Shown here one piece after another: positions 2,851 through 39,773 of a stretch of 41,917 bases of DNA. The DNA lies in contig WJOY01000009.1 in assembly GCA_009619075.1 (NCBI GenBank), forward strand, positions 1 through 41,917, in the 5' to 3' direction. The stretch is from Dehalococcoidia bacterium (lineage in GTDB: Bacteria; Chloroflexota; Dehalococcoidia; GIF9; AB-539-J10). How positions within the stretch are numbered: the first letter of the stretch is position 1; every line of letters begins with the position of its first letter. The notes beneath the pieces are model-generated. The model had not been told where the DNA came from and did not search any database. It saw nothing but the letters and a program-made list of their open reading frames with translations. Both the position numbers and the translations under genes were made by a program.

Positions 2851-4108
2851 CTTTTTCCCTGGTCACCATAACTTTCTCTATCTTCACCCCTCGCATTTCA
2901 GTGATAACGAATTTCAGGTTCCGATACTTCAATTGCTCACCTTGCCTGGGTATCCGCCCAAGACAGCTCAGAATAAAGCCCGCCACAGTCTCATAATCAC
3001 CAAGAGGCAGTTCTAGTCCTAGTTCATCGTTAGCCTCCTCCACCCGGAATCCACCATCCAACTGAAAGACATTATCACCGGTTACCACGAAGTCCCTATC
3101 TTCCTTAATCAATTCATGCCGAATATCGCCCACAATCTCCTCAGTGAGCTGCCCCAAGGTAACCATTCCAGCTATACCCCCAAATTCATCGACAACAATT
3201 ACTACGTGATAACCGCCGTCTCTTATCTCGGTGAGAAGCTCTCCCAGATGCTTGCTCTCTGGCACAAAGTGAGCCGGTCGTATCAAACCATCAATAACAA
3301 TTTCTTCGCTTGCACAGTTATCAGTTAACTTCATAAGCACATCTTTAGCAAACAAGATACCCACCACATTATCAGTATTATCTTTATAGACGGGAAAGCG
3401 GCTATAAGGCGTTTGAGCATAGATAGCTAGAAAAACGCTTAGCTTCGTTCCTTGCTCTACCCAGGCGATTTCCGTCCTGGGAATCATTACCTTACTTACC
3501 GGGCGATCAGTAAACTCAAACACTTTGTGCAGCATCTCTGCCTCATCCTCTTCTACCACTCCTTCATCCTCACCGGCGCTTATAACGGAGCGTATCTCAC
3601 CCTCGCTCACTAGCTTCCTATCCTCCTCAGTCTCAGCCACCATTTTAATAAACCCTAAACCAATACGATCCAATGCCAAGACAAAGGGATAAAGGCACCA
3701 CTCTATTATCCTCACTGGATTAATATAAAGCAGCGATAGTCGCTGAGCACGGTGGACAGCTAAAGTCTTGGGGATAACCTCTCCAAAAACTAAAATCAAG
3801 GCTGTCACTCCAACAGTGGCTATGATTGGCCCCCATGGCAAGCCAAAGACAGCCACTGCCATAATAGTGCCCAGCGTAGCTGCCGCCACATTTACCAAAT
3901 TATTACCTAATAAAACAGTGGCTAAAAACCTCTCTGGTCTATCAGCAGCTTTAGCTAGCTGCCTTGCTCCCTTAACACCGCTTTCTACCAGATATCTTAT
4001 GCGAAGCTTGGGCAGAGAGATAAAAGCTGCCTCAGCACTGGAAAAGAAAGCTGACAGAGCTAAGCAGAGTAGAAAGGCTAACAAAAGCCAACTATCGGCG
4101 TCGTCCAC
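2831..4108 (-). CDS. Hemolysin/CNNM-type membrane protein with CBS domains (TlyC/CorC-like)
   Basis: DUF21-like N-terminus (AFFSSAEAAFISLPKLRIRYLVESG), VMIPRTEI, CBS and CorC-HlyC C-terminus. Confidence 0.92.
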   Translation of the reverse strand: MDDADSWLLLAFLLCLALSAFFSSAEAAFISLPKLRIRYLVESGVKGARQLAKAADRPERFLATVLLGNNLVNVAAATLGTIMAVAVFGLPWGPIIATVGVTALILVFGEVIPKTLAVHRAQRLSLLYINPVRIIEWCLYPFVLALDRIGLGFIKMVAETEEDRKLVSEGEIRSVISAGEDEGVVEEDEAEMLHKVFEFTDRPVSKVMIPRTEIAWVEQGTKLSVFLAIYAQTPYSRFPVYKDNTDNVVGILFAKDVLMKLTDNCASEEIVIDGLIRPAHFVPESKHLGELLTEIRDGGYHVVIVVDEFGGIAGMVTLGQLTEEIVGDIRHELIKEDRDFVVTGDNVFQLDGGFRVEEANDELGLELPLGDYETVAGFILSCLGRIPRQGEQLKYRNLKFVITEMRGVKIEKVMVTREKDATPAS

Positions 4109-4306
4109 CTATCACCACCCCCCAAATCCTCCGCTAAATAAACTGACCATACTTTTACAATTAAACCCTTGGGTTAAAATCTTCCCTTATATAAGTTATA
4201 ATAACATTAGCTAGCAAGCCTGTCAAAACAAAAACTTTTGACAGGCTCCCAATCCTATGATATTGTAGGCTTTGTTGATTATTTTGGTCAACAAAGCAGG
4301 GATTCA

Positions 4307-4777
4307 ATGAAGCTCTCCGCTAAAGGACGGTATGGAACCAGAGCGCTTTTAGATTTAGCCCTTCACTGGGGTGAGGGACTAGTTCCATTGAAAGATGTTG
4401 CTCGAAGACAAGAGATTCCACTGCCCTACCTGGAGCATTTAATCGCGCCTCTTATAGCAGCGGGAATAATAAAGAGCACTCGCGGGCCTCGGGGTGGAGT
4501 TTCACTGCTCAAGCACCCAGAGGAGATTAAGCTCAGCGAGGTGATTCAACTTCTCGAGGGCTCGATTGCTCCGGTAGAGTGTGTCGATAATCCAAAGTCA
4601 TATCCTTGTTCAGACCTTTGTGTCACTCGCGACATCTGGGGTGAGGTAAAAAAAGCCATAGACGGAGTTTTAGAATCTACGACTTTACAGGATCTGGTCG
4701 AGCGGCAAACTAGGAAAGAGGCAACTGCCAGGTGTAAAGTCAGAGAGGTAGTATGCCAGCTAAGATTGACAAAGTAG
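4307..4777 (+). CDS. Rrf2 family transcriptional regulator
   Basis: MKLSAKGRYGTRALLDLALH start; Cys triad CVDNPKSYPCSDLC; ORF-track start at 4238 is probably too far upstream. Confidence 0.92.
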   Translation: MKLSAKGRYGTRALLDLALHWGEGLVPLKDVARRQEIPLPYLEHLIAPLIAAGIIKSTRGPRGGVSLLKHPEEIKLSEVIQLLEGSIAPVECVDNPKSYPCSDLCVTRDIWGEVKKAIDGVLESTTLQDLVERQTRKEATARCKVREVVCQLRLTK

Positions 4778-4984
4778 ACTTGTTTCTTGCCCGGAGATAA
4801 AATAGCCTTAATAAAAGAAGTCCTATTGAAATGCAAAATGACAGAGCAAAAGTTAAAAAGTTTGCATTTTGAATTGTCATTTTGACTCTTGCCCTTTGAT
4901 TTTTAATTTTCTATAGGGAATCTATGTTTCGAGCAATGTCGGAGTTTATAGTAGAGGCTGAAGCTAGAAGGAAGGAGGTTAATT

Positions 4985-5203
4985 ATGCGAGAGAAGATAG
5001 AAGCAGCACTAGAGCAAATAAGACCTGCTTTGCTAGCAGATGGCGGTGATGTCCAGCTGGTAGATGTCAGCAACGGTGTGGTCAAGGTGAAGCTCACCGG
5101 TGCCTGCGGAGGCTGTCCAATGGCGACCATAACCTTGCGACAGGGAATTGAGCGTGTGCTTAAAGAGCAAGTGCCTGAAGTTAAGGAAGTGATTGCCATC
5201 TGA
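4985..5203 (+). CDS. NifU C-terminal-domain protein (Fe-S scaffold)
   Basis: IRPALLADGGDVQLV…GACGGCPMATITL motif; RBS aggaggtt. Confidence 0.93.
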   Translation: MREKIEAALEQIRPALLADGGDVQLVDVSNGVVKVKLTGACGGCPMATITLRQGIERVLKEQVPEVKEVIAI

Positions 5204-5257
5204 TTAAAGGACTATGCTATAAGAAAGAGACAAAAGGGGAACTAGCTAGGGACTGAA

Positions 5258-5542
5258 ATGCCAAAGGCTTTTATTTGTCATTCTTGTGATGAGAGAGTGG
5301 AATTCTCCCCTGAGAAGCGACCTTGCGAGGCGCTCAGCGGCTGGCTTACGGTTTCGCACTGGAAAGGCTTGGGAGCAGTTGAGCAGTACAATTTCTGTTC
5401 CTTTACTTGCCTTAAAAGATGGGCAGATGCTCAGGTTCCCAAAATCCCCGAGGTGTTCCTAAAGGCTTTTGAGAGAAAAAGGGATAAAAAAAGAAAGGCT
5501 ATGCGAGGAAAATACAACCTTGAAGGAGGAATCGCTCCATGA
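5258..5542 (+). CDS. Small Cys-rich (zinc-finger-like) protein
   Basis: CHSCDE … CSFTCLKRW Cys pairs; position within the Fe-S gene run. Confidence 0.6.
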   Translation: MPKAFICHSCDERVEFSPEKRPCEALSGWLTVSHWKGLGAVEQYNFCSFTCLKRWADAQVPKIPEVFLKAFERKRDKKRKAMRGKYNLEGGIAP

Positions 5543-5633
5543 GAGGATCGGGGCTTCCCAATAACCCCAGAAACAAAATGCCCTTCCAGCGGTTCATAAT
5601 TTTTATGTTTGAAGAGGAGATCGAGCGGTAAAA

Positions 5634-5867
5634 ATGCCTATCTATGAATATTTTTGTCCACATTGTAATCTTAAGTTTGAATTACTTCGCCCCTTATCCC
5701 AGTCAGACGAAATTGCCTCTTGTCCTTATTGTCATAACGGCGCTAAGCGAATGTTCTCTTCCTTCGCTTGCCCTTCTAACCACACGGAAGAGGAATCCGC
5801 CTCGATCGGTGGAAGTTCCCCTTGCAGCACATGCTCTGCCGTAAGCTGTGCTGCTTGCAAAAGATAG
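5634..5867 (+). CDS. FmdB-type zinc ribbon protein
   Basis: MPIYEYFCPHCNLKFELL…CPYCHNGAKRMFS. Confidence 0.88.
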   Translation: MPIYEYFCPHCNLKFELLRPLSQSDEIASCPYCHNGAKRMFSSFACPSNHTEEESASIGGSSPCSTCSAVSCAACKR

Positions 5868-24868: not shown

Positions 24869-24871
24869 CTT

Positions 24872-24911
24872 GCGCCTATAGCTCAGCGGACAAGAGCACC
24901 GGTCTTCGGAA
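24872..24911 (+). pseudogene. Truncated tRNA-Arg(TCG) 5' half (attL)
   Basis: GCGCCTATAGCTCAGCGGACAAGAGCACCGGTCTTCGGAA identical to 38476-38515, then diverges. Confidence 0.93.
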
Positions 24912-25330
24912 GATGAGCCAGGCATGATGTCTCATATAGTCTGAGATGGTTACGCTGTCCGCTCCGACCCCCCAGCCTACGATGGGACACAGCTAACCAC
25001 AAAGGCTACCACCGACGGGAAGCGGCACGGGGAGCGTCAAAACGGGGAGGTTCACGATGGCATGGGTAGAGCAGCGGTTTCGTAATTCTAGGTTAAGGGT
25101 ATCAAGAGATGGTTTTAGCTTCAAAACAGTGCTATTCCATTTTTGGTTTCAAAGCTAAAATACCATTGGGTAACAACCCGTTGTTGGCAAATTAACGCCA
25201 AATTTCTAGCTTCAGTTTGAGCGTGAAATACTGCTAAGACTGCTAAGAATAATTGAAACTCCCTTTTTCTAGCCTCCCATAAAATGATTGTCCACGCTCA
25301 AGTCAGCCTTGCTTTAATTTGCATTTAAAA

Positions 25331-25496
25331 TCAGGTTCAGAAATACCTTAAAACGCTTTTTTTACTTTGTGCACGTAAACCGCTTAATTTTAGCCTCGTT
25401 GAATTAGATTTTTGAGTGTAAAAAATGATGGTATTTTTTGAAGCTAATATGGCAGGAATATGCAAAAAACAGTATTTTAATTTGAACCTATAATTG
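25331..25496 (+). repeat. ~165-bp noncoding repeat, copy A
   Basis: 'ccgcttaattttagcctcgttgaattagatttttgagtgtaaaaaatgatg…tttgaagctaatatggcaggaatatg' matches 26386-26560. Confidence 0.9.
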
Positions 25497-25541: not shown

Positions 25542-26285
25542 ATGATGAATTGGATTGGTATATTAGTAGGTATTATTGGTGTTGCTATAGCGATATACTT
25601 TGGTATAGCTTCAAGGAGAAGACGTGAACTAGTATATTCAGTCAATTCAGTTCGCACAAGAGTGGTTATTTCGGGGCAAACAAAGGACCTTGATGTATTC
25701 TATGATGGCAGTTCATTGGGAGATGTAGATATTACGGCTGTTCAGCTAGCATTTTGGAACGCAGGGAATGAAAGCATCCGAAAACCTAATATTCTTGAGG
25801 AAGTTGTTGTAAAAACTGAACCACCGGTGCGTATACTGGAAGCATCTATAAGAGCTCAATCGCGAAATATTGTAGGATTAAGTCTGCTAGATTCGCCCAA
25901 CTCAAGAAAGATTGGACAAGTGCCCATATCTTGGGATATTTTGGAAAGAAATGATGGCGCTTCTATTCAGTTACTATATCTTGGAGAACCGGAGGTCGAT
26001 GTTTCGGTACAAGGTGTTATTGAAGGGCAACGGGAGATTAAACGTCTAAGTGTAAGTACAGATTTTAAATCACCACAAGACCAAAAGAAATCGTTTAGAA
26101 AGAGTGTTTTGATAGCAACTGTTTGCTTCATAATACTTCTAATTTCAATGGCATTGTTGTTTTTCAGAAAGTTGGATCCTGATTATATAGCTATAGTTTT
26201 TTCTGGTTCAGTTATGATATTCTTAATTTCGACTTTGAATGCAATATCTAAAAAGCGTGAAAAGTATCCTCCATTTGGCTTTTAA
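25542..26285 (+). CDS. Unknown membrane protein (N-terminal TM, C-terminal TM pair)
   Basis: Long ORF between the two repeat copies; hydrophobic N-terminus and two C-terminal hydrophobic segments. Confidence 0.75.
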   Translation: MMNWIGILVGIIGVAIAIYFGIASRRRRELVYSVNSVRTRVVISGQTKDLDVFYDGSSLGDVDITAVQLAFWNAGNESIRKPNILEEVVVKTEPPVRILEASIRAQSRNIVGLSLLDSPNSRKIGQVPISWDILERNDGASIQLLYLGEPEVDVSVQGVIEGQREIKRLSVSTDFKSPQDQKKSFRKSVLIATVCFIILLISMALLFFRKLDPDYIAIVFSGSVMIFLISTLNAISKKREKYPPFGF

Positions 26286-26385
26286 ACCCTCTACCTCACG
26301 TTTTTAAAAGGTGATTTTAAGCACACCCTCCACCACATTAGCTTGAAGTAGCCTAATTTAGCCTCGTTTTGTTTTCCATTGGAAA

Positions 26386-26560
26386 TCAGCCTCAAAAATG
26401 CCTAAAAACACCTTTTTTACTTTATGAGCGTAGACCGCTTAATTTTAGCCTCGTTTAATTAGATTTTTGAGTGTAAAAAATGATGCAATTAATGTAATTA
26501 TTTGAAGCTAATATGGCAGAAATATGGGAAAAACGGTATTTCCATTTAGGAACTTATTGT
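26386..26560 (+). repeat. ~165-bp noncoding repeat, copy B
   Basis: See 25331-25496. Confidence 0.9.
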
Positions 26561-26598: not shown

Positions 26599-27222
26599 AT
26601 GGGAAGTAAAGCAATAATAATAGCAGATTTGGCAGCTGGTTTATTGATTGGTATGCAGTTTTTATTAACACAAGAAAAGTATAAAAGTTGGGATGAGAAG
26701 CTATTAAAGAAACTACAGGTAAACATATTTGATAGTGATTCATTCAGAATAAAGACAATGCTAATACCTGGATCTTTAACAGCGGTTATTATGTTGGGGA
26801 TAATTATACAGGGAACGATTGTAGATCTTACCGAAGGTGCTCTTAACGTAGGACATATTTTATTGTCTGCCATCAGTTTGACAGGAGGAATGATAATAGC
26901 GATTGGCATTATATTTCTTGTAGTATGGATAAAAAATAGAGTAAGACGCTTCCGGAAATTTAATCCTATGGTGATGGTGTATTTAGTAGGGATGGTATTA
27001 GGAATAGCCTTTTTGTCTGTCTTAATGGTGGTCGTTGGAAGGGTATCTACTCATATTATAGCCCTTATTGTAGCATTTACAGTTGGCGTAATGCTTATGG
27101 GGGTATGGGCTGGGGGAATGAGGTATATCCAGCAGTATTTAACTTTTACGAATGGGCTGTTGATACGTTTGGGAATACTGATTTTCGTAAGTAGTAAGTT
27201 TTTACAATTGATTTATATGTAA
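26599..27222 (+). CDS. Unknown multi-pass membrane protein
   Basis: Good RBS (agaggaggtt); several hydrophobic helices. Confidence 0.75.
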   Translation: MGSKAIIIADLAAGLLIGMQFLLTQEKYKSWDEKLLKKLQVNIFDSDSFRIKTMLIPGSLTAVIMLGIIIQGTIVDLTEGALNVGHILLSAISLTGGMIIAIGIIFLVVWIKNRVRRFRKFNPMVMVYLVGMVLGIAFLSVLMVVVGRVSTHIIALIVAFTVGVMLMGVWAGGMRYIQQYLTFTNGLLIRLGILIFVSSKFLQLIYM

Positions 27223-27277: not shown

Positions 27278-28015
27278 ATGATTGACATTAGAATAAAATA
27301 TCAAGCATCCATTTTCGTGGACGCTAATGACATTACTCCTTCTCCAGATATAATAAGCCCGCTTATCGACATTTTTCGAGATAAAACCTTCATCCCCAAT
27401 ACGTTTCAAGAGATAGGTCCTGCATCTCCAGTCCCAAAGGTAAGGCTTAGGCTATCCACAACGAATAACGAATGGAATATTGCTTTCGCTACACATAGGA
27501 TTAATATCGATAAAAATCCAATTGAACCGAGAGGAAGCAACCTAGGCGAATTATCTGATTTCTGTTCAGAGGCTATGGATTTCTTCGGAAGAATACTAAA
27601 TAAGTTCAATAAAAGAGCAAACCGCCTTACTCTAAATACTAACGGACTATTTGAAGAAATGACCGAAACCCAGCTTTCTACTATATACACAAAGTTGTTC
27701 AAAACAACTAAGTTCTACAGCGAAAACCCTCCGTTTGAATGGGATTGGAGGTCTGTTTCAGAAATACCTATCAAAATCTTAGAACTGACGGATAGCCTTT
27801 ACGTTATAACCATATTAAAACGTGTAAGGGGCGAAATTGGTGGCCAAAGTGGTGTATCCAAGTTGGATCGCATCCAATGTTCCCCAGATATCAACACCTC
27901 TAGTCAAAATACTAATTATCGATTTGGACTACCCCACATCAAAAACTATTTTCCGCAGGCTCTTGAAATTCATAACATGCTAATTGAACAGATGGAGGAA
28001 TATATTAATGCCTAG
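27278..28015 (+). CDS. Unknown protein, first gene of three-gene operon
   Basis: 245-aa ORF; overlaps next gene start at 28008. Confidence 0.78.
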   Translation: MIDIRIKYQASIFVDANDITPSPDIISPLIDIFRDKTFIPNTFQEIGPASPVPKVRLRLSTTNNEWNIAFATHRINIDKNPIEPRGSNLGELSDFCSEAMDFFGRILNKFNKRANRLTLNTNGLFEEMTETQLSTIYTKLFKTTKFYSENPPFEWDWRSVSEIPIKILELTDSLYVITILKRVRGEIGGQSGVSKLDRIQCSPDINTSSQNTNYRFGLPHIKNYFPQALEIHNMLIEQMEEYINA

Positions 28016-28640
28016 TTTCATTTTAGAAATAGACAGTGGCACAAGTCATGATTTAGCTGAGCAAAGATTATTAAACCTCCTGATTGAGACTGATTATCCT
28101 GATTCAGCTCAATCTACACTGCCCTTACTTCTGAATATTCTTCAGAGTAAAGCAGCTCATATATCAGTAGTTGACGAGAATTATATTAATCAAAGTCGCT
28201 TACTGAAACTAAAAAGACAGTTTACTCCTAAAATACTCAATTTGATATTGGAGTCAGTCTTTGAATACGGCATCGATTCACAAGCAGATGTATTCATTCG
28301 TAGTCAGATGAAGGAAAACTCTCTGGTAACCAAAAATTGGCTCAATGAAATTTTTGTCGAACATTTTTCAAACCCTGTTATTCTTATTGGCATCCTTCGT
28401 ATTATATCTCGACTTTTCTATTACGCGGTTTACCCAGAAGGTCAGCTTATGGCAACTACAGCTCTTTCACACTCTAACGTTGAAGTTCAAGAATGCGGAG
28501 TCCGTGCTTTCGAAAGTTGGGGAACCTTAGATAGTCTTCGTATCCTTAATAACATTAAAGTAGTTACGCCTTGGCTTCAAGATTATGTTAACGAGGTAGT
28601 TAAAGACTTAAGTAGAGGGCATAATGTCCCTGTTGGTTAG
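28008..28640 (+). CDS. Unknown, possibly helical-repeat (HEAT-like) protein, second gene of operon
   Basis: ATG 28008 overlaps upstream stop; helical text ending SHSNVEVQECGVRAFESWGTLDSLRIL resembles a HEAT unit. Confidence 0.72.
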   Translation: MPSFILEIDSGTSHDLAEQRLLNLLIETDYPDSAQSTLPLLLNILQSKAAHISVVDENYINQSRLLKLKRQFTPKILNLILESVFEYGIDSQADVFIRSQMKENSLVTKNWLNEIFVEHFSNPVILIGILRIISRLFYYAVYPEGQLMATTALSHSNVEVQECGVRAFESWGTLDSLRILNNIKVVTPWLQDYVNEVVKDLSRGHNVPVG

Positions 28641-29145
28641 AAAAATCGACAAAAGCAAGTGGCTACAGAACAACATTATTGCTGATGAAGATGTTTCCGC
28701 AGATGCTATCACTATTTGCCTAAGAACGTCTGAAAATACACTCAGCGTCTGGAAGGTCTCGACTGAAAACGATATTGAAGAAGCTATTCTTGCCATGGTA
28801 TCTGGTGGTGACCACCTTGAGTCTATAGATATAATAACAATTGATTGTCAACACATAGCATCTGATAGGATAAATTGTGTCCAAAGTTTAGAACAATCGC
28901 TTACTCGTGTTCGAGACCTTAAAAACGCACATTACGATATAATTGACTTATCTTACCGTAAGCTGGGAGTTATTTCACAGTATATTGTTGACTGTTTTAA
29001 AAAGGGGCAAATAACCAACCGCTGTGAAGAAGGTAAAGTCGTCAGATACACTGAAGGCTATCTCAAGGGAATTATTCAAAAAGCCATAAACAAAGGGCGA
29101 TTGAAGAAAGAAGATCTTCCTGATTCTATCCAAAATAAACTTTAA
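28624..29145 (+). CDS. Unknown protein, third gene of operon
   Basis: Overlaps 28640 stop; 173 aa, no recognisable family. Confidence 0.75.
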   Translation: MSLLVRKIDKSKWLQNNIIADEDVSADAITICLRTSENTLSVWKVSTENDIEEAILAMVSGGDHLESIDIITIDCQHIASDRINCVQSLEQSLTRVRDLKNAHYDIIDLSYRKLGVISQYIVDCFKKGQITNRCEEGKVVRYTEGYLKGIIQKAINKGRLKKEDLPDSIQNKL

Positions 29146-29321
29146 TAATTTCTCTCCTATTCTCTACCATTGCCATTATTCTAAAAACACCTTATGGCTT
29201 TCCCGACGTCCTGTTAGTAGGGTAGGACGTTGCTTTGGCAGTCGGTGAAGATACTGGCAGGACGTTAAGGAAGTTAATCAAGTAGCCGCCAGTTCCCAGG
29301 TATATATATAACCAAAGAGAG

Positions 29322-29345
29322 GAGAGTGGCCGTGGAGCCACTCTC
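29322..29345. terminator. Hairpin GAGAGTGGC-CGTGGA-GCCACTCTC
   Basis: Perfect 9-bp stem followed by TTCGTTT; lies just 3' of the capsid remnant on the minus strand. Confidence 0.65.
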
Positions 29346-29369
29346 TTCGTTTACCTTGCCATGCCCCCA

Positions 29370-29644: not shown

Positions 29645-30127
29645 ATGAGAATGGTAAAAACCAAAAGGAAAAGAAAGCCGTATAGCGAAAGAAATGACCT
29701 TGAAAGAATTAGATCCAATTGGAGAAAAATAGAAGGGCTATATCACAAGGGAGAATGGTCAAGTGTCGTAATAAGATCAGCTACAGCTACTGAAATTGCA
29801 ATAAATCTTGTGATAAGAGAGGAGCTTGCAAATAAACGGAAGCTTGAGAAAGACTTTGTCGAAAGCCTTTTAATTTGGGCGAATGGTATTCAAGGTAAAG
29901 TAAACCGGCTGATACGTCCTCTTCTAACAAACCCAGAAGACACTAGAGTATTTAGAGATTTGAGTTCTATGATTAATGATATAAACAATGAACGTAATTC
30001 AGTTGCGCATAGTGGACAATTTAAAAGGAAAACAACTGCAATAAAAATCGTCAACTCATCTAAGGAAGTCATAGAAACATTGGTAGGACGATATAAAGGG
30101 AACTTTGAACTTAAGGATATTTTATAA
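29645..30127 (+). CDS. HEPN-like domain protein
   Basis: Helical 160-aa protein with RNSVAH (Rx4H). Confidence 0.6.
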   Translation: MRMVKTKRKRKPYSERNDLERIRSNWRKIEGLYHKGEWSSVVIRSATATEIAINLVIREELANKRKLEKDFVESLLIWANGIQGKVNRLIRPLLTNPEDTRVFRDLSSMINDINNERNSVAHSGQFKRKTTAIKIVNSSKEVIETLVGRYKGNFELKDIL

Positions 30128-31272: not shown

Positions 31273-31354
31273 GAAAGTTATTTGAGGTATAATCCGGCCC
31301 ACGAACACAAGTGTAGAATAGTATTGGCGATACTCTTTGGTTAAGGAGCGAAAT

Positions 31355-32332
31355 ATGAATAATTGGTTCGCAGTGCATTCATTAGAAGCCTTCCAGCAAA
31401 ATCCTAGGATGCTTGGATTCGTAGCCAAGACTAAGCTTGATGGGTCCGTTCTCAAAGACCAGAACGACAAGCCTATGCCGGCTATGGACAAGGTCTTGGA
31501 GGTAAAGCCGAGGGATCACATTGTCTACTACTGTAGGGGTGACTATGTAATTAAAGGCATCTATGAGGTTGTGAGGGCTTGTTTCGCTGAAGAAACAAAG
31601 TGGCCGGATTCGCCTTTCCAATTTAAAATAAAACCAATAATTGAGTTAGATGAACCCTTTGACTTTCGCGTTTTGTTGTCCTCACTTGACATGTTTAGAG
31701 ATTTAGAGGATATACGGAAATGGGGAATGCCTCTTCGTGGTACGTATAACGCCCTTAAACGTCTCACCGACCACGACTATGCAACGATTGAAAAAGCCAT
31801 AGTTCAAGCTAGAGACCAGGGCACAGTGAGAGAGGATTACGAGATTGAAGGAAAACTTAGAAACTATAGGCAACACCTTCAGATTCAGTACAAGATAGCG
31901 GAGTGGGGCATAGAAAACGGATATCGAGTGCATATTGCAATTAATGACAAGGGCAAGATAAAAGAGAAGCTTAACAAAATACTCTCGGATATCCCTAGGT
32001 TTCACTCAGACAAGATTTTGGAAATTGCGGAAAGGATTGATGTGCTCTTTTTTGATAAGGAACGAGATATCTTGACGCATGCTTTTGAGGTTGAGCATAC
32101 TCCAACTATGTATTCCGGCCTTCTGCGATTGAATGATATTGCCGAAACCTGCCATAGAGGAACCACAAAATTCTATATCATCTCTGATAAGGGCAATAGA
32201 GACAAGTTCAATCACGAACTCGAAAGACCCTCATTTCAATTGTTGAGAGTGGATAAGTGTGAGTTTGTAAGCTACGAGGAATTGGGGGAAGCGTGGAAGC
32301 AATTACAGAACAAATCTGTGCCGTTGTTCTGA
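31355..32332 (+). CDS. EVE (PUA-like) domain fused to nuclease-like C-terminal domain
   Basis: MNNWFAVHSLEAFQQNPRMLGF…KPRDHIVYYCRGDYVIKGIYEV; C-terminal IDVLFFDKERDILTHAFEVEHTPTMYSGLLRLNDI. Confidence 0.7.
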   Translation: MNNWFAVHSLEAFQQNPRMLGFVAKTKLDGSVLKDQNDKPMPAMDKVLEVKPRDHIVYYCRGDYVIKGIYEVVRACFAEETKWPDSPFQFKIKPIIELDEPFDFRVLLSSLDMFRDLEDIRKWGMPLRGTYNALKRLTDHDYATIEKAIVQARDQGTVREDYEIEGKLRNYRQHLQIQYKIAEWGIENGYRVHIAINDKGKIKEKLNKILSDIPRFHSDKILEIAERIDVLFFDKERDILTHAFEVEHTPTMYSGLLRLNDIAETCHRGTTKFYIISDKGNRDKFNHELERPSFQLLRVDKCEFVSYEELGEAWKQLQNKSVPLF

Positions 32333-32403
32333 GCAGCAGTATTCCACTGACAAGGTGACTAACGCTGTTTCTCAGCCGGTAACTGGTAGGTTCTTGGGTG
32401 ACA

Positions 32404-33120
32404 ATGAACATAATTGGCATTGACTGCGCAACTAAGCAGGCCAAAATTGGTCTGGCTTTCGCTTTGTATCAAGATGGCAAGGCTATTGTGCGAGATGTGA
32501 AAATTGGCAGTGAAACCACAACGGTGTTGGTAACTATCAAGGACTGGTTAGCCTCGGGGAAATTGACACTTCTTGCCTTGGACGCGCCACTTGGCTGGCC
32601 CACCGATTTGGGGGTGAACTTACATTTACATAAAGCAGGAGAATGCATAAATGTAGACCCCGATATAATGTTCTCACGCTATACCGACCGGAAATTATGG
32701 CCAAGGTTATCCAGGAAGCCGCTCGAAGTCGGCGCAAATCTAATAGCCAGGACTGCTCACGCAGCATTGCGATTACTGGGACAGTTACGAGAGGAAACCA
32801 AGTTAACGATTCCTCTAGCGTGGGATCCTAATGTCACTGAGACGTGTGCTATTGAGGTATATCCTAGAGCTACTCTTGAGATGATTGGTATCAAGTACGA
32901 GCAACGGTTGTCTGCGATACGTGAGATTGACGCCCTGGTTATTGAATCGGGAGAGGACAATCTGACGAGTGAGCATAGTTTAGATGCAGTAATATGTGTA
33001 CTCGCCGCAGTAGATTTTATAACTGGTAAGTGCCCAGCGCCAAATATGAGTGAGAAGGTTCTTGCGGATAAAGAGGGCTGGATTTGGGTGCGGGGAAGCC
33101 GTGGAAAGATGAAAAATTAG
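32404..33120 (+). CDS. DUF429-family (RNase H-fold) protein
   Basis: IIGIDCATKQAKIGLA; LLALDAPLGWP; EVYPRATLEMIG; SEHSLDAVICVLAA. Confidence 0.82.
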   Translation: MNIIGIDCATKQAKIGLAFALYQDGKAIVRDVKIGSETTTVLVTIKDWLASGKLTLLALDAPLGWPTDLGVNLHLHKAGECINVDPDIMFSRYTDRKLWPRLSRKPLEVGANLIARTAHAALRLLGQLREETKLTIPLAWDPNVTETCAIEVYPRATLEMIGIKYEQRLSAIREIDALVIESGEDNLTSEHSLDAVICVLAAVDFITGKCPAPNMSEKVLADKEGWIWVRGSRGKMKN

Positions 33121-36700: not shown

Positions 36701-36905
36701 ATTGACTACTGCCAGACTGTTAGAAAAACTTAGTCAGAGTCTGCGAGAGCGAGTTAGCCAATGGGTTTATGTACAGCGCGGATTGCGTCTTTATGACGGC
36801 CCTAAAGTCTATATTTATAAAGCACCGCGTTTAGTTGATTGGACACGAACCCAAGCAATGGACGATGCTGCGGACATCATCGGACAGGCAATAGTAAGCA
36901 CATGA
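33681..36905 (+). CDS. Eco57I-type N6-adenine DNA methyltransferase
   Basis: VLDPACGSGVFLVLAYRRL (SAM motif) and WITGNPPWIEL (NPPW catalytic motif). Confidence 0.92.
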   Translation: MIMIELSDLLNKLDYDTSLHYKRADGPTDVETAHLFRAARDAGVSGIYVFEASPIDTYKLLSPRPVVYVARANTEEEARQIHRSLWNLGYAPFLLILLPHQVRIYTGFDYSEESEEQGLLDVANNLEQLVDLLSDFKAHSIDTGFIWESKYYREIDQDQRVDRRLLSNLEQLGKALEDSGLSDELAHALIGKYVYLSYLKSRGILTDEWIRKQQIMPQGVFSHNANVVSLQKLVVALEERFNGRIFPIDFQKEKTLEDKHVSWVASVFSGSEIIEDVPESVYQLCFPFRAYDFSYIPVETLSAIYEQFIRDRKEKGAIYTPEVLADYVLSEMEWAKPLERGMKVLDPACGSGVFLVLAYRRLIEKEIYHLGLTEKLKLETLRDILLKSIYGIERERDACYVAEFSLILTLLHYTEPRDLNSLKFKFPELHNKQIFECDFFDIEGEKDGARFWQRGLKFDWITGNPPWIELKPDTEGVECVRAWIENPNNEKEHPVGGNRVAEAFSWLVTDLLNQDGLIGLVLPATSLFNRESGKFRQSFFTKHEVLRVTNFANLRDILFGREKSGVLPAMTMVYRPSVDSHHKPHIIHYGPFSVNQITTRRDKPWVITINESEIKSIPPYEAEQGEMLTWKLALWGTYRDKRAIERIRHLSPNTLEDFCKQNGWGERLPREGAQLRTERENPRWFKANIKGQKKFDTKTYDAIKPRYRFSIPDGSVLQEIIDDVYIRTGKDTLYLTTPAPHVILSASWQNFAIYSDYDFVTPPRQMVISAPRSPKENEDYLRALTIYLSSSLVAYYLFFQVPQWGIFSQRGSVITKAVRKIPTPLFTTKQAKEFADFHRALVERERCDKTRFVSDSLQRRKIFGQFNTVEGSSSLSKALKTLTSKEKQEIDRFVWEKDEELQRDIDNKVYDLLEIPEDIKLLASEFVQTRLLLDKPSVRERITRKPTKEVLLAYARQLQKELDSFTTGTAYHRVNITHSNDLIQCVVEITKENAPIVVNEDSIKSGELTTARLLEKLSQSLRERVSQWVYVQRGLRLYDGPKVYIYKAPRLVDWTRTQAMDDAADIIGQAIVST

Positions 36906-37564
36906 ACGCTGACTATACAATTACAATCAAGCCTAGCGAAATATATTTCGGAGTTTACCGCAGTCTATTTAGACAGCAAGTGCATCAGTTGATTGCTTGG
37001 GGACATCGCAGTGCTCGTCATAGTATACAATCGAATAACGAAGAGGAGCCAAATATTACCGGTTATATTACTGAAGCCATTAGGGCACGTCTCGTGACGA
37101 ACAGCCCCCCATGGTGTGTGTATTACTTTGTTCATGAAGACACGCCGATAGCGGCAAGTGGTCGTTCAGGAAGGTCTAGACCTAGACCTGATATTATTAT
37201 TGAAACAAACTTAGGAGGGCGTCCTGAGTACGTTTTTGAAGCAAAGCGGTTAAGAATAAATGGGTTCGAAGCAAGCAAATATATCGATTCAGATGGTATG
37301 GGATGCTTCGTGAGTGGCCTATATGCTTCGAGATATGATGAAGCAGCTATGCTCGGTTACATCCAGAGCGACTCATTGATTCACTGGAAAGATCAAGTAA
37401 AGAAGACTATTGATGAGAATGCGGAACAATTGTGTTTAGAATCTCCGCAGTATGATAAAACAGTAATAGACGTTTTCCCCCTTGAATGGGTCAGTGAACA
37501 TAAACGAGTTAAAGCAGGACATTCCATTGCTATCTATCATATTCTCTTAGACTGCTGTGCCTAG
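36902..37564 (+). CDS. Restriction endonuclease-like protein
   Basis: RPRPDIIIETNLGGRPEYVFEAKRLRI (D…ExK); ATGA overlap with the methylase. Confidence 0.75.
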   Translation: MNADYTITIKPSEIYFGVYRSLFRQQVHQLIAWGHRSARHSIQSNNEEEPNITGYITEAIRARLVTNSPPWCVYYFVHEDTPIAASGRSGRSRPRPDIIIETNLGGRPEYVFEAKRLRINGFEASKYIDSDGMGCFVSGLYASRYDEAAMLGYIQSDSLIHWKDQVKKTIDENAEQLCLESPQYDKTVIDVFPLEWVSEHKRVKAGHSIAIYHILLDCCA

Positions 37565-37729: not shown

Positions 37730-37990
37730 TTACCCTCTCACTATATATAGGGCATTGAGTATTGTTGTTGGCGAGGTGAAGCTCAGGTCTGCCAGTCCTA
37801 AGCAATATAGCCGCTTGTCTATCGTGACGGCACCGGCGGCAGCGGTCGTTACTGTGGCTGCTGCCAGGGTGGCATCTTTGGTGAATCCCTCTGGCTGCTG
37901 ATTGTCGTGTCCGGTACCAGCGATGAACGCCAGCTCCTCGGCCTCGGCGACTGCTCTGGCGAAGCTATCAACCAAGAGGTCAGCCAGATT
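37730..37990 (-). pseudogene. HK97-type major capsid protein, internal fragment
   Basis: LADLLVDSFARAVAEAEELAFIAGTGHDNQQPEGFTKDATLAAATVTTAAAGAVTID; real similarity probably ends near 37825. Confidence 0.78.
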
Positions 37991-38446
37991 CTGTATAAGG
38001 GCAGAGGCAGAGTCGAGTTTAAGGAACCAAAGACAGAATATAGCAGGCGTAGGGTCGGCATGACGCCAAAGCTGGCACTATTCTTCAGAGAATATAAGGC
38101 TGAGAGGGAATCGCTTCACTGGCAGCTAGGGGTGCCGCTCACTCTTGATGACCTCGTCTTCGCCAATTACGATGGGAAGCCGATAGACCCTAGCACCTTG
38201 ACCCATAATTTTGGTAGAATAGTAAAGCGTGCAGGGTTGAGCGCCCGCTTCCACGATTTGAGGCATAGCTATGCATCTCTGATGTTGGCGTCTGGCGTTC
38301 ATCCTAAAATAGTCTCCGAAGCGCTGGGACATAGTACGGTGGCCATCACCCTGGACATATATAGCCACGTCACCCCAGGGCTTCAAGAGGCGGCTGCGAA
38401 GCAGCTTGACTCCCTGCTGCCAGTTGGAGTGGCTCGAGCGGCATGA
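37990..38446 (+). pseudogene. Tyrosine integrase, C-terminal catalytic fragment
   Basis: QILYKGRGRVEFKEPKTEYSRRRV…RFHDLRHSYASLMLASGVHPKIVSEALGHSTVAITLDIYSHV; N-terminal part missing. Confidence 0.88.
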
Positions 38447-38475
38447 AAGCGTCACGGGGAGGTTTAGCTATGCGT

Positions 38476-38549
38476 GCGCCTATAGCTCAGCGGACAAGAG
38501 CACCGGTCTTCGGAACCGGGGGTCGTGGGTTCAAATCCCTCTAGGCGCG
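38476..38549 (+). tRNA. tRNA-Arg(TCG)
   Basis: GCGCCTA/TAGGCGC acceptor; CCGGT-CTTCGGA-ACCGG anticodon arm; T-loop TTCAAAT. Confidence 0.95.
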
Positions 38550-38565
38550 CTACTGAGTCACCCTC

Positions 38566-38608
38566 TTTTGCTAACATTTTGCTAACATTTTGCTAACATT
38601 TTGCTAAC
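38566..38608. repeat. Tandem 11-bp repeat TTTTGCTAACA x ~4
   Basis: Units at 38566, 38577, 38588, 38599; last unit overlaps the integrase stop codon. Confidence 0.92.
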
Positions 38609-39773
38609 GAACTTCCGTTTGAGCTGTTTCCGGCTCAAGCAGCGTATCAAAACGCAAAGCCGCTGCTTCCTGGAGTCCTGGCACCACATGGCTATAGGTA
38701 TCGAGTGTTATGCCTATATTTGCATGCCCCAGCCTTTCAGAGACTATCTTGGGATGCACGCCAGCCTTAAGCATTAGAGTAGCGTGAGTATGCCTGAGGT
38801 CGTGAAAGCGAATATGCGGCAGCCCAGCCTTCCGAATGAGCCTGCCAAAACCATGGCTAACTGTGCTCGGGTCCAGAGGGCTGCCATCAGGATGGGCAAA
38901 CACCAAATCGCTACCAGCCAACCTTTCCCCAAGCAGAGCTTTCTGTGCTTCCCGCTCAGCGTGATGCCCACGCAGTAACTTTGCTAGAGACGGTGATAGC
39001 GACACCAAACGCCGACTATGAGGACTCTTAGGCTCTTTTATCACGAATTCCCCACTGCTTAGCCTATATAGAGTTTGAACTACAGAAATTGAAGCCCGCC
39101 CCAGGTCTATATCACACCACCTTAGCCCCAAAAGCTCACCACGCCGCATCCCGGTATAGAGAGCTGCGTAAAATAAAACGTAGTAGGGTGTCCTTCGGGC
39201 AGCATCAAGAAACCTGGGAACATTCTCAGAGGCCAGCGTGGACATCTCGATCCGACCAGGCCGCGGTGGAACGACAGCTTCAGCCACATTCCGAACTACC
39301 ACCCCCTGCTTCACAGCATGGCTTAACGCCTCTGACAGAACACGATGTTGGTGTAACACGGTCCGACCAGAAAGACCCCCCTTCCCATCAAGCCGGCCAT
39401 GTGATAGGGCACCTGAATAGTAATTTTCAAGATGCTGCGGTTGAAGCTGGCAAAGTGGTATTCCACCCAGAGCAGGAACAATGTAGCGGTGCACAATAGC
39501 CCGATACCCTTCAGTCGTCCGAGGTGAGGTGTGTATTGCAGCATAGCTCTCAACCCACTGCTTTAGATATTCACCCAGGCTTACCTTTTGAGGCTTGACA
39601 TAGGCACCTCTCTCCAGGGAATGTAGGGTTTCCCTGAGTTCCCGCTGCGCATCCCCCTTTGTCCCTTTGACCGTCTGCCATTGTTGGCGACGTTTGCCCG
39701 TCTGAGGATCTCTCCCTACATCAATAATGATGCTCCAGGAACCTTTACTCCGTTGCTTAATATGTCCTCTCAT
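38604..39773 (-). CDS. Tyrosine-type site-specific integrase, intact
   Basis: RGHIKQRSKGSWSIIIDVGRDPQTGKRRQ; TGMRRGELLGLRW; RFHDLRHTHATLML; LGHANIGITLDTYSHV. Confidence 0.95.
   Translation of the reverse strand: MRGHIKQRSKGSWSIIIDVGRDPQTGKRRQQWQTVKGTKGDAQRELRETLHSLERGAYVKPQKVSLGEYLKQWVESYAAIHTSPRTTEGYRAIVHRYIVPALGGIPLCQLQPQHLENYYSGALSHGRLDGKGGLSGRTVLHQHRVLSEALSHAVKQGVVVRNVAEAVVPPRPGRIEMSTLASENVPRFLDAARRTPYYVLFYAALYTGMRRGELLGLRWCDIDLGRASISVVQTLYRLSSGEFVIKEPKSPHSRRLVSLSPSLAKLLRGHHAEREAQKALLGERLAGSDLVFAHPDGSPLDPSTVSHGFGRLIRKAGLPHIRFHDLRHTHATLMLKAGVHPKIVSERLGHANIGITLDTYSHVVPGLQEAAALRFDTLLEPETAQTEVR

Follow-up and report, generated by a model that had tools for sequence, protein, structure and literature searches.

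Listed in Table 1 are the features of a 41,917-nucleotide stretch of DNA, hereafter referred to as the window, which derives from a fragmented and incomplete Dehalococcoidia genome (0.94 Mb, 68% complete). Described here is a compact operon of three open reading frames, designated ORF1, ORF2, and ORF3. As can be seen, the reading frames overlap at both junctions, just as the initial annotation had reported, and the translational coupling that it read from these overlaps is taken as shown. None of the three is a chance reading frame; homologs of all of them recur elsewhere with their order kept.

Table 1. Features of the window, in order of position.
Feature	Position	Strand	Remarks
Left copy of a 41-nt perfect direct repeat	24871-24911	+	5' part of tRNA-Arg; island boundary
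Imperfect repeats	25300-25483 and 26355-26547		136 and 61 nt, ~83% identical
Predicted membrane-protein genes	25542-26285 and 26599-27222		consecutive
ORF1	27278-28015	+	245 aa, ATG start
ORF2	28008-28640	+	210 aa, ATG start; longer TTG-started form from 27984
ORF1/ORF2 overlap	28008-28015	+	8 nt
ORF3	28624-29145	+	173 aa, ATG start
ORF2/ORF3 overlap	28624-28640	+	17 nt
Hairpin 3' of ORF3	29319-29348	+	12-pair, G+C-rich, weak T tail; possible terminator
Gene for a stand-alone 160-aa protein	29645-30127		weak HEPN similarity (RiboL-PSP, Csm6/CARF-HEPN)
Gene for a fusion protein	31337-32332		EVE-like N-terminal region; type II restriction-enzyme-like C-terminus (PADLOC REase_II, E 6.7e-10)
DUF429 protein gene	32398-33120		E 1e-11; also matches PADLOC candidate family PDC-S44
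Type IIG restriction-modification gene	at 33681		
Gene for a 241-aa protein	36839-37564		directly downstream of the type IIG gene; no Pfam match
Tyrosine-integrase C-terminal fragment	37907-38446	+	island right end; PF00589, E 7.3e-18
Right copy of the 41-nt repeat	38475-38515	+	in the 5' part of an intact tRNA-Arg (38476-38550)
Second, complete tyrosine integrase	38604-39773	-	across the tRNA-Arg from the island

The module sits in a genomic island. The two copies of the 41-nt tRNA-Arg repeat enclose 13.6 kb, and this repeat together with the integrase fragment identifies the segment as a tRNA-Arg genomic island, the integrase of which has decayed. The 24 kb on the left flank have a G+C content of ∼0.41-0.50. 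Between the repeat copies the value is ∼0.33-0.47, with the minimum within the island (0.33-0.39) falling around the three-gene module. A location in a mobile island next to recognizable defense genes had been proposed from the letters of the window, and both parts of that proposal hold: the defense genes beside the module include one for a type IIG restriction-modification protein. The complete integrase on the far side of the tRNA-Arg suggests a tandem use of the attachment site.

Searches of Pfam, NCBIfam, and PADLOC with the three window proteins returned only matches below the cut-offs, in agreement with the earlier view that none of them belongs to a family that can be named with confidence. 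The PHROG families, on the other hand, are matched one to one, ORF1 by phrog_19817 (E 1.1e-14), ORF2 by phrog_21208 (E 4.9e-8), and ORF3 by phrog_10743 (E 9.6e-31). These are the same families as ORF1-3; PHROGs lists them as being of unknown function and records no link among them. Save for these three unnamed PHROGs, the three-gene unit is new to the family libraries searched.

Relatives were sought with ORF3 alone, and every ORF of every locus was then compared with profiles of the three families. With near-duplicates removed, the count of loci stands at 34 non-redundant ORF3 clusters, one of which (L008) is a truncated relative of another (L002). All three genes are collinear, on one strand, and separated by short gaps or overlaps in 31 of the 34 clusters. 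ORF2 adjoins ORF3 throughout (34/34), such that ORF3 without ORF2 was encountered in none of the clusters, and ORF1 is likewise in place in 31/34. The three exceptions (L045, L050, and L067) keep ORF2 and ORF3, with ORF1 absent or broken. Note that the profiles were built from the window, L002-L004, L012-L016, L041, L044-L050, and L063-L068. Matches at these loci hold by construction, and thus the 13 clusters outside profile building (L071 plus twelve in the range L075-L094) constitute the real test of linkage; the three genes occur together in 13/13. The initial annotation had proposed asking whether the genes co-occur in other islands, and had named homologs that are always scattered and unlinked, or a clear housekeeping annotation, as observations that would speak against its reading. 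What was found instead was co-occurrence across phyla, phages, and plasmids, with most clusters complete and collinear, and no clear housekeeping annotation for any of the three genes.

A translated search with ORF3 led to small plasmids from Acinetobacter and Enterobacter and to Acinetobacter phages, and a second seed added ColRNAI plasmids of Klebsiella, 4.4 kb and 8 kb in length. In each of these plasmids and phages ORF2 and ORF1 are positioned upstream of ORF3, and the module is cargo of plasmids of 4-8 kb. Scans of genomes revealed three loci in the sample of the window's own phylum, the window included, and further loci in Desulfobacterales, another deltaproteobacterium, Microbulbifer, Runella, Acidaminococcaceae, Shewanella, and a betaproteobacterium. 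The spread is sporadic, with two to five matches (seeds included) per phylum sample of 247-400 genomes, and one such match, with an E-value of 5e-4, is doubtful. Many prophages were added by scans of viral contigs. Pattern scans of the genome and viral contigs with single proteins gave no match, and a pattern scan of the viral contigs seeded from L066, L067, and L050 gave no relatives.

The module is flanked by lysozyme and integrase genes in Acinetobacter Vieuvirus and lies amid replication and nin-like accessory genes in lambda-like prophages (genes named by reading the sequences), and in L016 it adjoins an integrase. That many copies occupy accessory positions of temperate phages is what would be expected of a lysogenic-conversion or phage-benefit module, acting in superinfection exclusion or as an anti-defense factor of the phage itself. 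Such a role fails to explain the copies in chromosomal islands and on small plasmids without phage genes, and is considered very unlikely. Of the chromosomal copies, those of L046 and L049 stand alone between unrelated housekeeping genes, and that of L064 borders a large gene whose sequence suggests an N6-methylase-type restriction-modification protein. Located near the chromosomal copy of L063 are genes for an SfiI-type restriction enzyme, a methylase, and a DarT protein. The latter (L063:10641-11816), a single chain of 391 residues, combines a DarT domain at the N-terminus (E 7.5e-40) with a weak match to the Macro domain at the C-terminus, and is possibly a DarT-DarG fusion.

Anti-phage systems concentrate in the interval between gpA and gpQ of P2 prophages, a published hotspot (Rousset et al. 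2022, PMC9122126). The module lies in this interval in the P2-like prophages of L041, L076, L081, and L094 (the last three by BLAST to the portal) and, by RefSeq annotation, in those of E. coli loci L095 and L096, where it consists of exactly three hypothetical genes. The L096 copy spans 3838-5701. A published system from the same study, the three-hypothetical-protein system 3HP (Rst_3HP), fits this description: it is reported to protect E. coli against phage P1, is composed of three genes without clear predicted domains, and is found in the same hotspot (PMC9122126). The likeness is one of description and location. PADLOC-DB 2.0.0, a release later than the 3HP paper, has no match to the window or to the E. 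coli copies, a result that counts only if the library holds 3HP. Additionally, 3HP is reportedly abundant in Salmonella Typhi and Paratyphi A and prophage-borne in Salmonella (PMC11305592), whereas ORF3 was found in no Salmonella phage record. The module is also rare in E. coli, being present in ∼10 of 5,426 complete genomes, and 169 systems have been curated from the hotspot. This indirect evidence leans against identity, and we regard it as unlikely that the unit is 3HP or a homolog thereof.

The profile and structure searches called for at the outset gave a HEAT assignment for ORF2, mixed folds for ORF1, and weak matches to a single fold for ORF3. The N-terminus of ORF2 is variable, and its conserved C-terminal portion is a HEAT-like helical repeat. 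The family profile matches HEAT and alphaRep chains in the PDB with a best E-value of 2e-20, and the ORF2 of L063 scores 33.4 bits against Pfam HEAT_2 (cut-off 27.7); the window ORF2 alone falls below the Pfam cut-off. On this basis ORF2 is classified by sequence as a HEAT-repeat protein, and the guess that the second reading frame may be helical-repeat proved sound.

For ORF1, the copy in the same operon slot of L066 is a full member of NCBIfam TIGR04255 (sporadTIGR04255), with a score of 115.6 bits against a cut-off of 30. The corresponding protein of phage L041 gives a match of 17.1 bits, below threshold, and the window ORF1 gives none. Because the window copy itself has no match to the model, it is referred to as TIGR04255-like, that is, as a distant relative and not a member. 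In the literature searched, TIGR04255 is not named. The model of ORF1 (pLDDT 92.7, pTM 0.89) displays a two-layer, pseudo-symmetric α/β architecture, and the fold search returned an AdoMetDC prozyme (E 2e-4), the McsB/guanidino-kinase domain (Z 8.6), and TBP (Z 7.4). We take these mixed folds to reflect a common pseudo-symmetric arrangement, and ascribe neither catalysis nor any other function to ORF1 on the strength of the resemblance. A sequence search of the PDB gave no match for the TIGR04255 member and one insignificant match for ORF1.

The model of ORF3, calculated from an alignment of 24 members, has a pLDDT of 90 and a pTM of 0.85. A Foldseek search with it gave nothing significant (no E-value below 0.4), a search of BFVD gave no significant match, and a sequence search of the PDB gave no match; a weak match to AbiEi (E 0.015) was dismissed. 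Alignment of the Foldseek candidates with VIA-align produced 32 rows with Z-scores of 2.3-5.3, none above 8, and nearly all of these correspond to the ADP-ribosyltransferase (ART) fold. The best rows are Tpt1/KptA (Z 5.3), the RES toxin VPA0770 (Z 5.1 over 104 residues), and CC0527 (Z 4.9), which we take to be a DUF952 protein. DarT aligns with a Z-score of 4.4 over 103 residues, and further rows include the SdeA mART, Rhs toxins (Rhs ARTs), and the A chains of cholera and pertussis toxins. VPA0770 is, by published description, a RES-domain toxin predicted to be an ART (PMC12457610), and DUF952 belongs to the Pfam ART clan (PMC7955679). A structural Z-score of 4-5 is below the level at which a single match is to be trusted. 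Despite the low scores, we infer an ART-like predicted fold for ORF3, because so coherent a list would hardly arise by chance.

Nine residues are invariant in 24/24 diverse ORF3 proteins, namely R6, W13, D27, T30, T35, N38, S41, W43, and H103, and the arginine, aspartate, threonine, asparagine, serine, tryptophan, and histidine residues among them look like an active site. Motif I of the ARTs is an arginine or histidine on strand 1, and motif II of the R-S-E type is a serine on strand 2. R6 lies on the first strand of the model (residues 3-8) and S41 on the second (residues 39-45), as in R-S-E ARTs (PMC9503650), with the strand equivalences deduced from order. In the R-S-E clade, strand 5 carries the catalytic glutamate, motif III, at its front edge (PMC9503650, PMC7955679). 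No conserved glutamate corresponding to motif III of the R-S-E or H-Y-E ARTs is present in the 24 ORF3 proteins; a later strand (residues 103-107) opens with H103 (24/24), followed by D105 (22/24). For this reason ORF3 is not filed as an R-S-E ART, ART catalysis is putative, and the fold could be that of a binding domain. If ORF3 is no enzyme, its likeness to the ARTs would be a chance product of a small α/β fold, and the unit would be a structural or sensing complex of its three proteins. The low Z-scores, the absence of Foldseek support, and the missing glutamate are consistent with this explanation, but a single superfamily accounts for almost every VIA-align row, and the first two model strands carry invariant polar residues. 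We consider it rather unlikely, and retain ORF3 as a candidate effector with an ART-like fold.

The ∼100 residues over which the ORF3 model aligns with DarT and VPA0770 liken the unit to DarTG and RES-Xre, toxin-antitoxin systems of the ART fold. There is, however, no sequence similarity of ORF3 to these toxins, its third strand lacks the catalytic glutamate, and the unit contains neither a Macro-domain nor an Xre antitoxin. An addiction or stabilization module of the toxin-antitoxin type, which would ensure that hosts retain the plasmids and prophages and would lack a dedicated sensor of phages, would agree with the occurrence on tiny plasmids and prophages and with the pairing of an ART-fold candidate toxin with a tightly linked partner. 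Three linked genes of 170-245 codons nevertheless exceed the usual toxin-antitoxin pairs, and the repeated placement in the P2 anti-phage hotspot and in restriction-rich islands fits defense better, making such a module distinctly unlikely. Many toxin-antitoxin systems are also defense systems, and thus the two readings overlap. ORF1 as the antitoxin was set aside, given that three loci lack it yet retain ORF2 and ORF3; the cases are few and provide a lean only. CmdTAC is composed of three genes, those for a toxin, an antitoxin, and a chaperone. It is described as acting against phages through an mRNA ADP-ribosyltransferase (PMC11618068), and provides a precedent for multi-gene, ART-based phage defense. 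ORF3 is instead accompanied by HEAT-repeat and TIGR04255-like proteins, and the putative effector is the last gene. PADLOC returned no CmdTAC match for the three proteins, which counts only if the library holds CmdTAC models.

The analysis shows a real, mobile, three-gene unit that crosses phyla, and establishes its linkage, order, and coupling, its placement in defense hotspots, and the assignment of ORF2 to the HEAT class. The initial annotation had put it forward as a candidate novel defense or conflict module, which the linkage in other islands and the defense-like neighbors and positions support, with the activity itself a candidate. The unit is probably a self-contained anti-phage or anti-mobile-element module with a divergent ART-fold effector, a reading with which its sporadic spread and its carriage on small plasmids are in keeping. 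Upon phage infection, ORF3 would consume NAD+ or transfer ADP-ribose to a component of the cell, and the infection would abort. ORF2, as a small HEAT-repeat scaffold, would bind and hold ORF3, and ORF1 may serve as the sensor or as the partner that sets the activity. What triggers the system, what it acts upon, and how ORF1 and ORF2 divide the work are conjecture. There is a lean toward ORF2, rather than ORF1, as the obligate partner of ORF3 because the two persist in L045, L050, and L067 without an intact ORF1. Conversely, ORF3 is broken and ORF1-ORF2 are intact in three damaged phage copies (L008, L042, and L043), which suggests that ORF3 is the costly part; these are closely related copies of Acinetobacter Vieuvirus, may reflect one event, and therefore count for little.

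The more specific proposal, a hitherto unrecognized, phylum-crossing defense system in which HEAT-repeat and TIGR04255-family proteins control a new ART-like clade that has R...S...H-x-D as its active site, is tentative, and we place it somewhat short of an even chance. If true, it would provide a first function for TIGR04255 and for the three PHROG families, and activity of ORF3 on NAD+ would make it a new ART lineage in bacterial immunity. Three unknown protein families are now joined in a single unit, for which a testable mechanism can be put forward. This unit measures only ∼1.9 kb, occurs in laboratory-accessible hosts (P2-like prophages of E. coli), and is directly assayable.

Several other genes of the island deserve mention. 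On the basis of their sequences, the 160-aa HEPN-like protein downstream of the module is possibly an RNase, and the EVE-like/REase_II-like fusion may be a nuclease directed at modified bases. Restriction-type genes of the island flank the DUF429/PDC-S44 gene. The 241-aa protein contains an EAK-like motif (YVFEAKRLR) reminiscent of PD-(D/E)XK nucleases. Finally, the two imperfect repeats are positioned upstream of the consecutive membrane-protein genes, and these upstream regions look duplicated.
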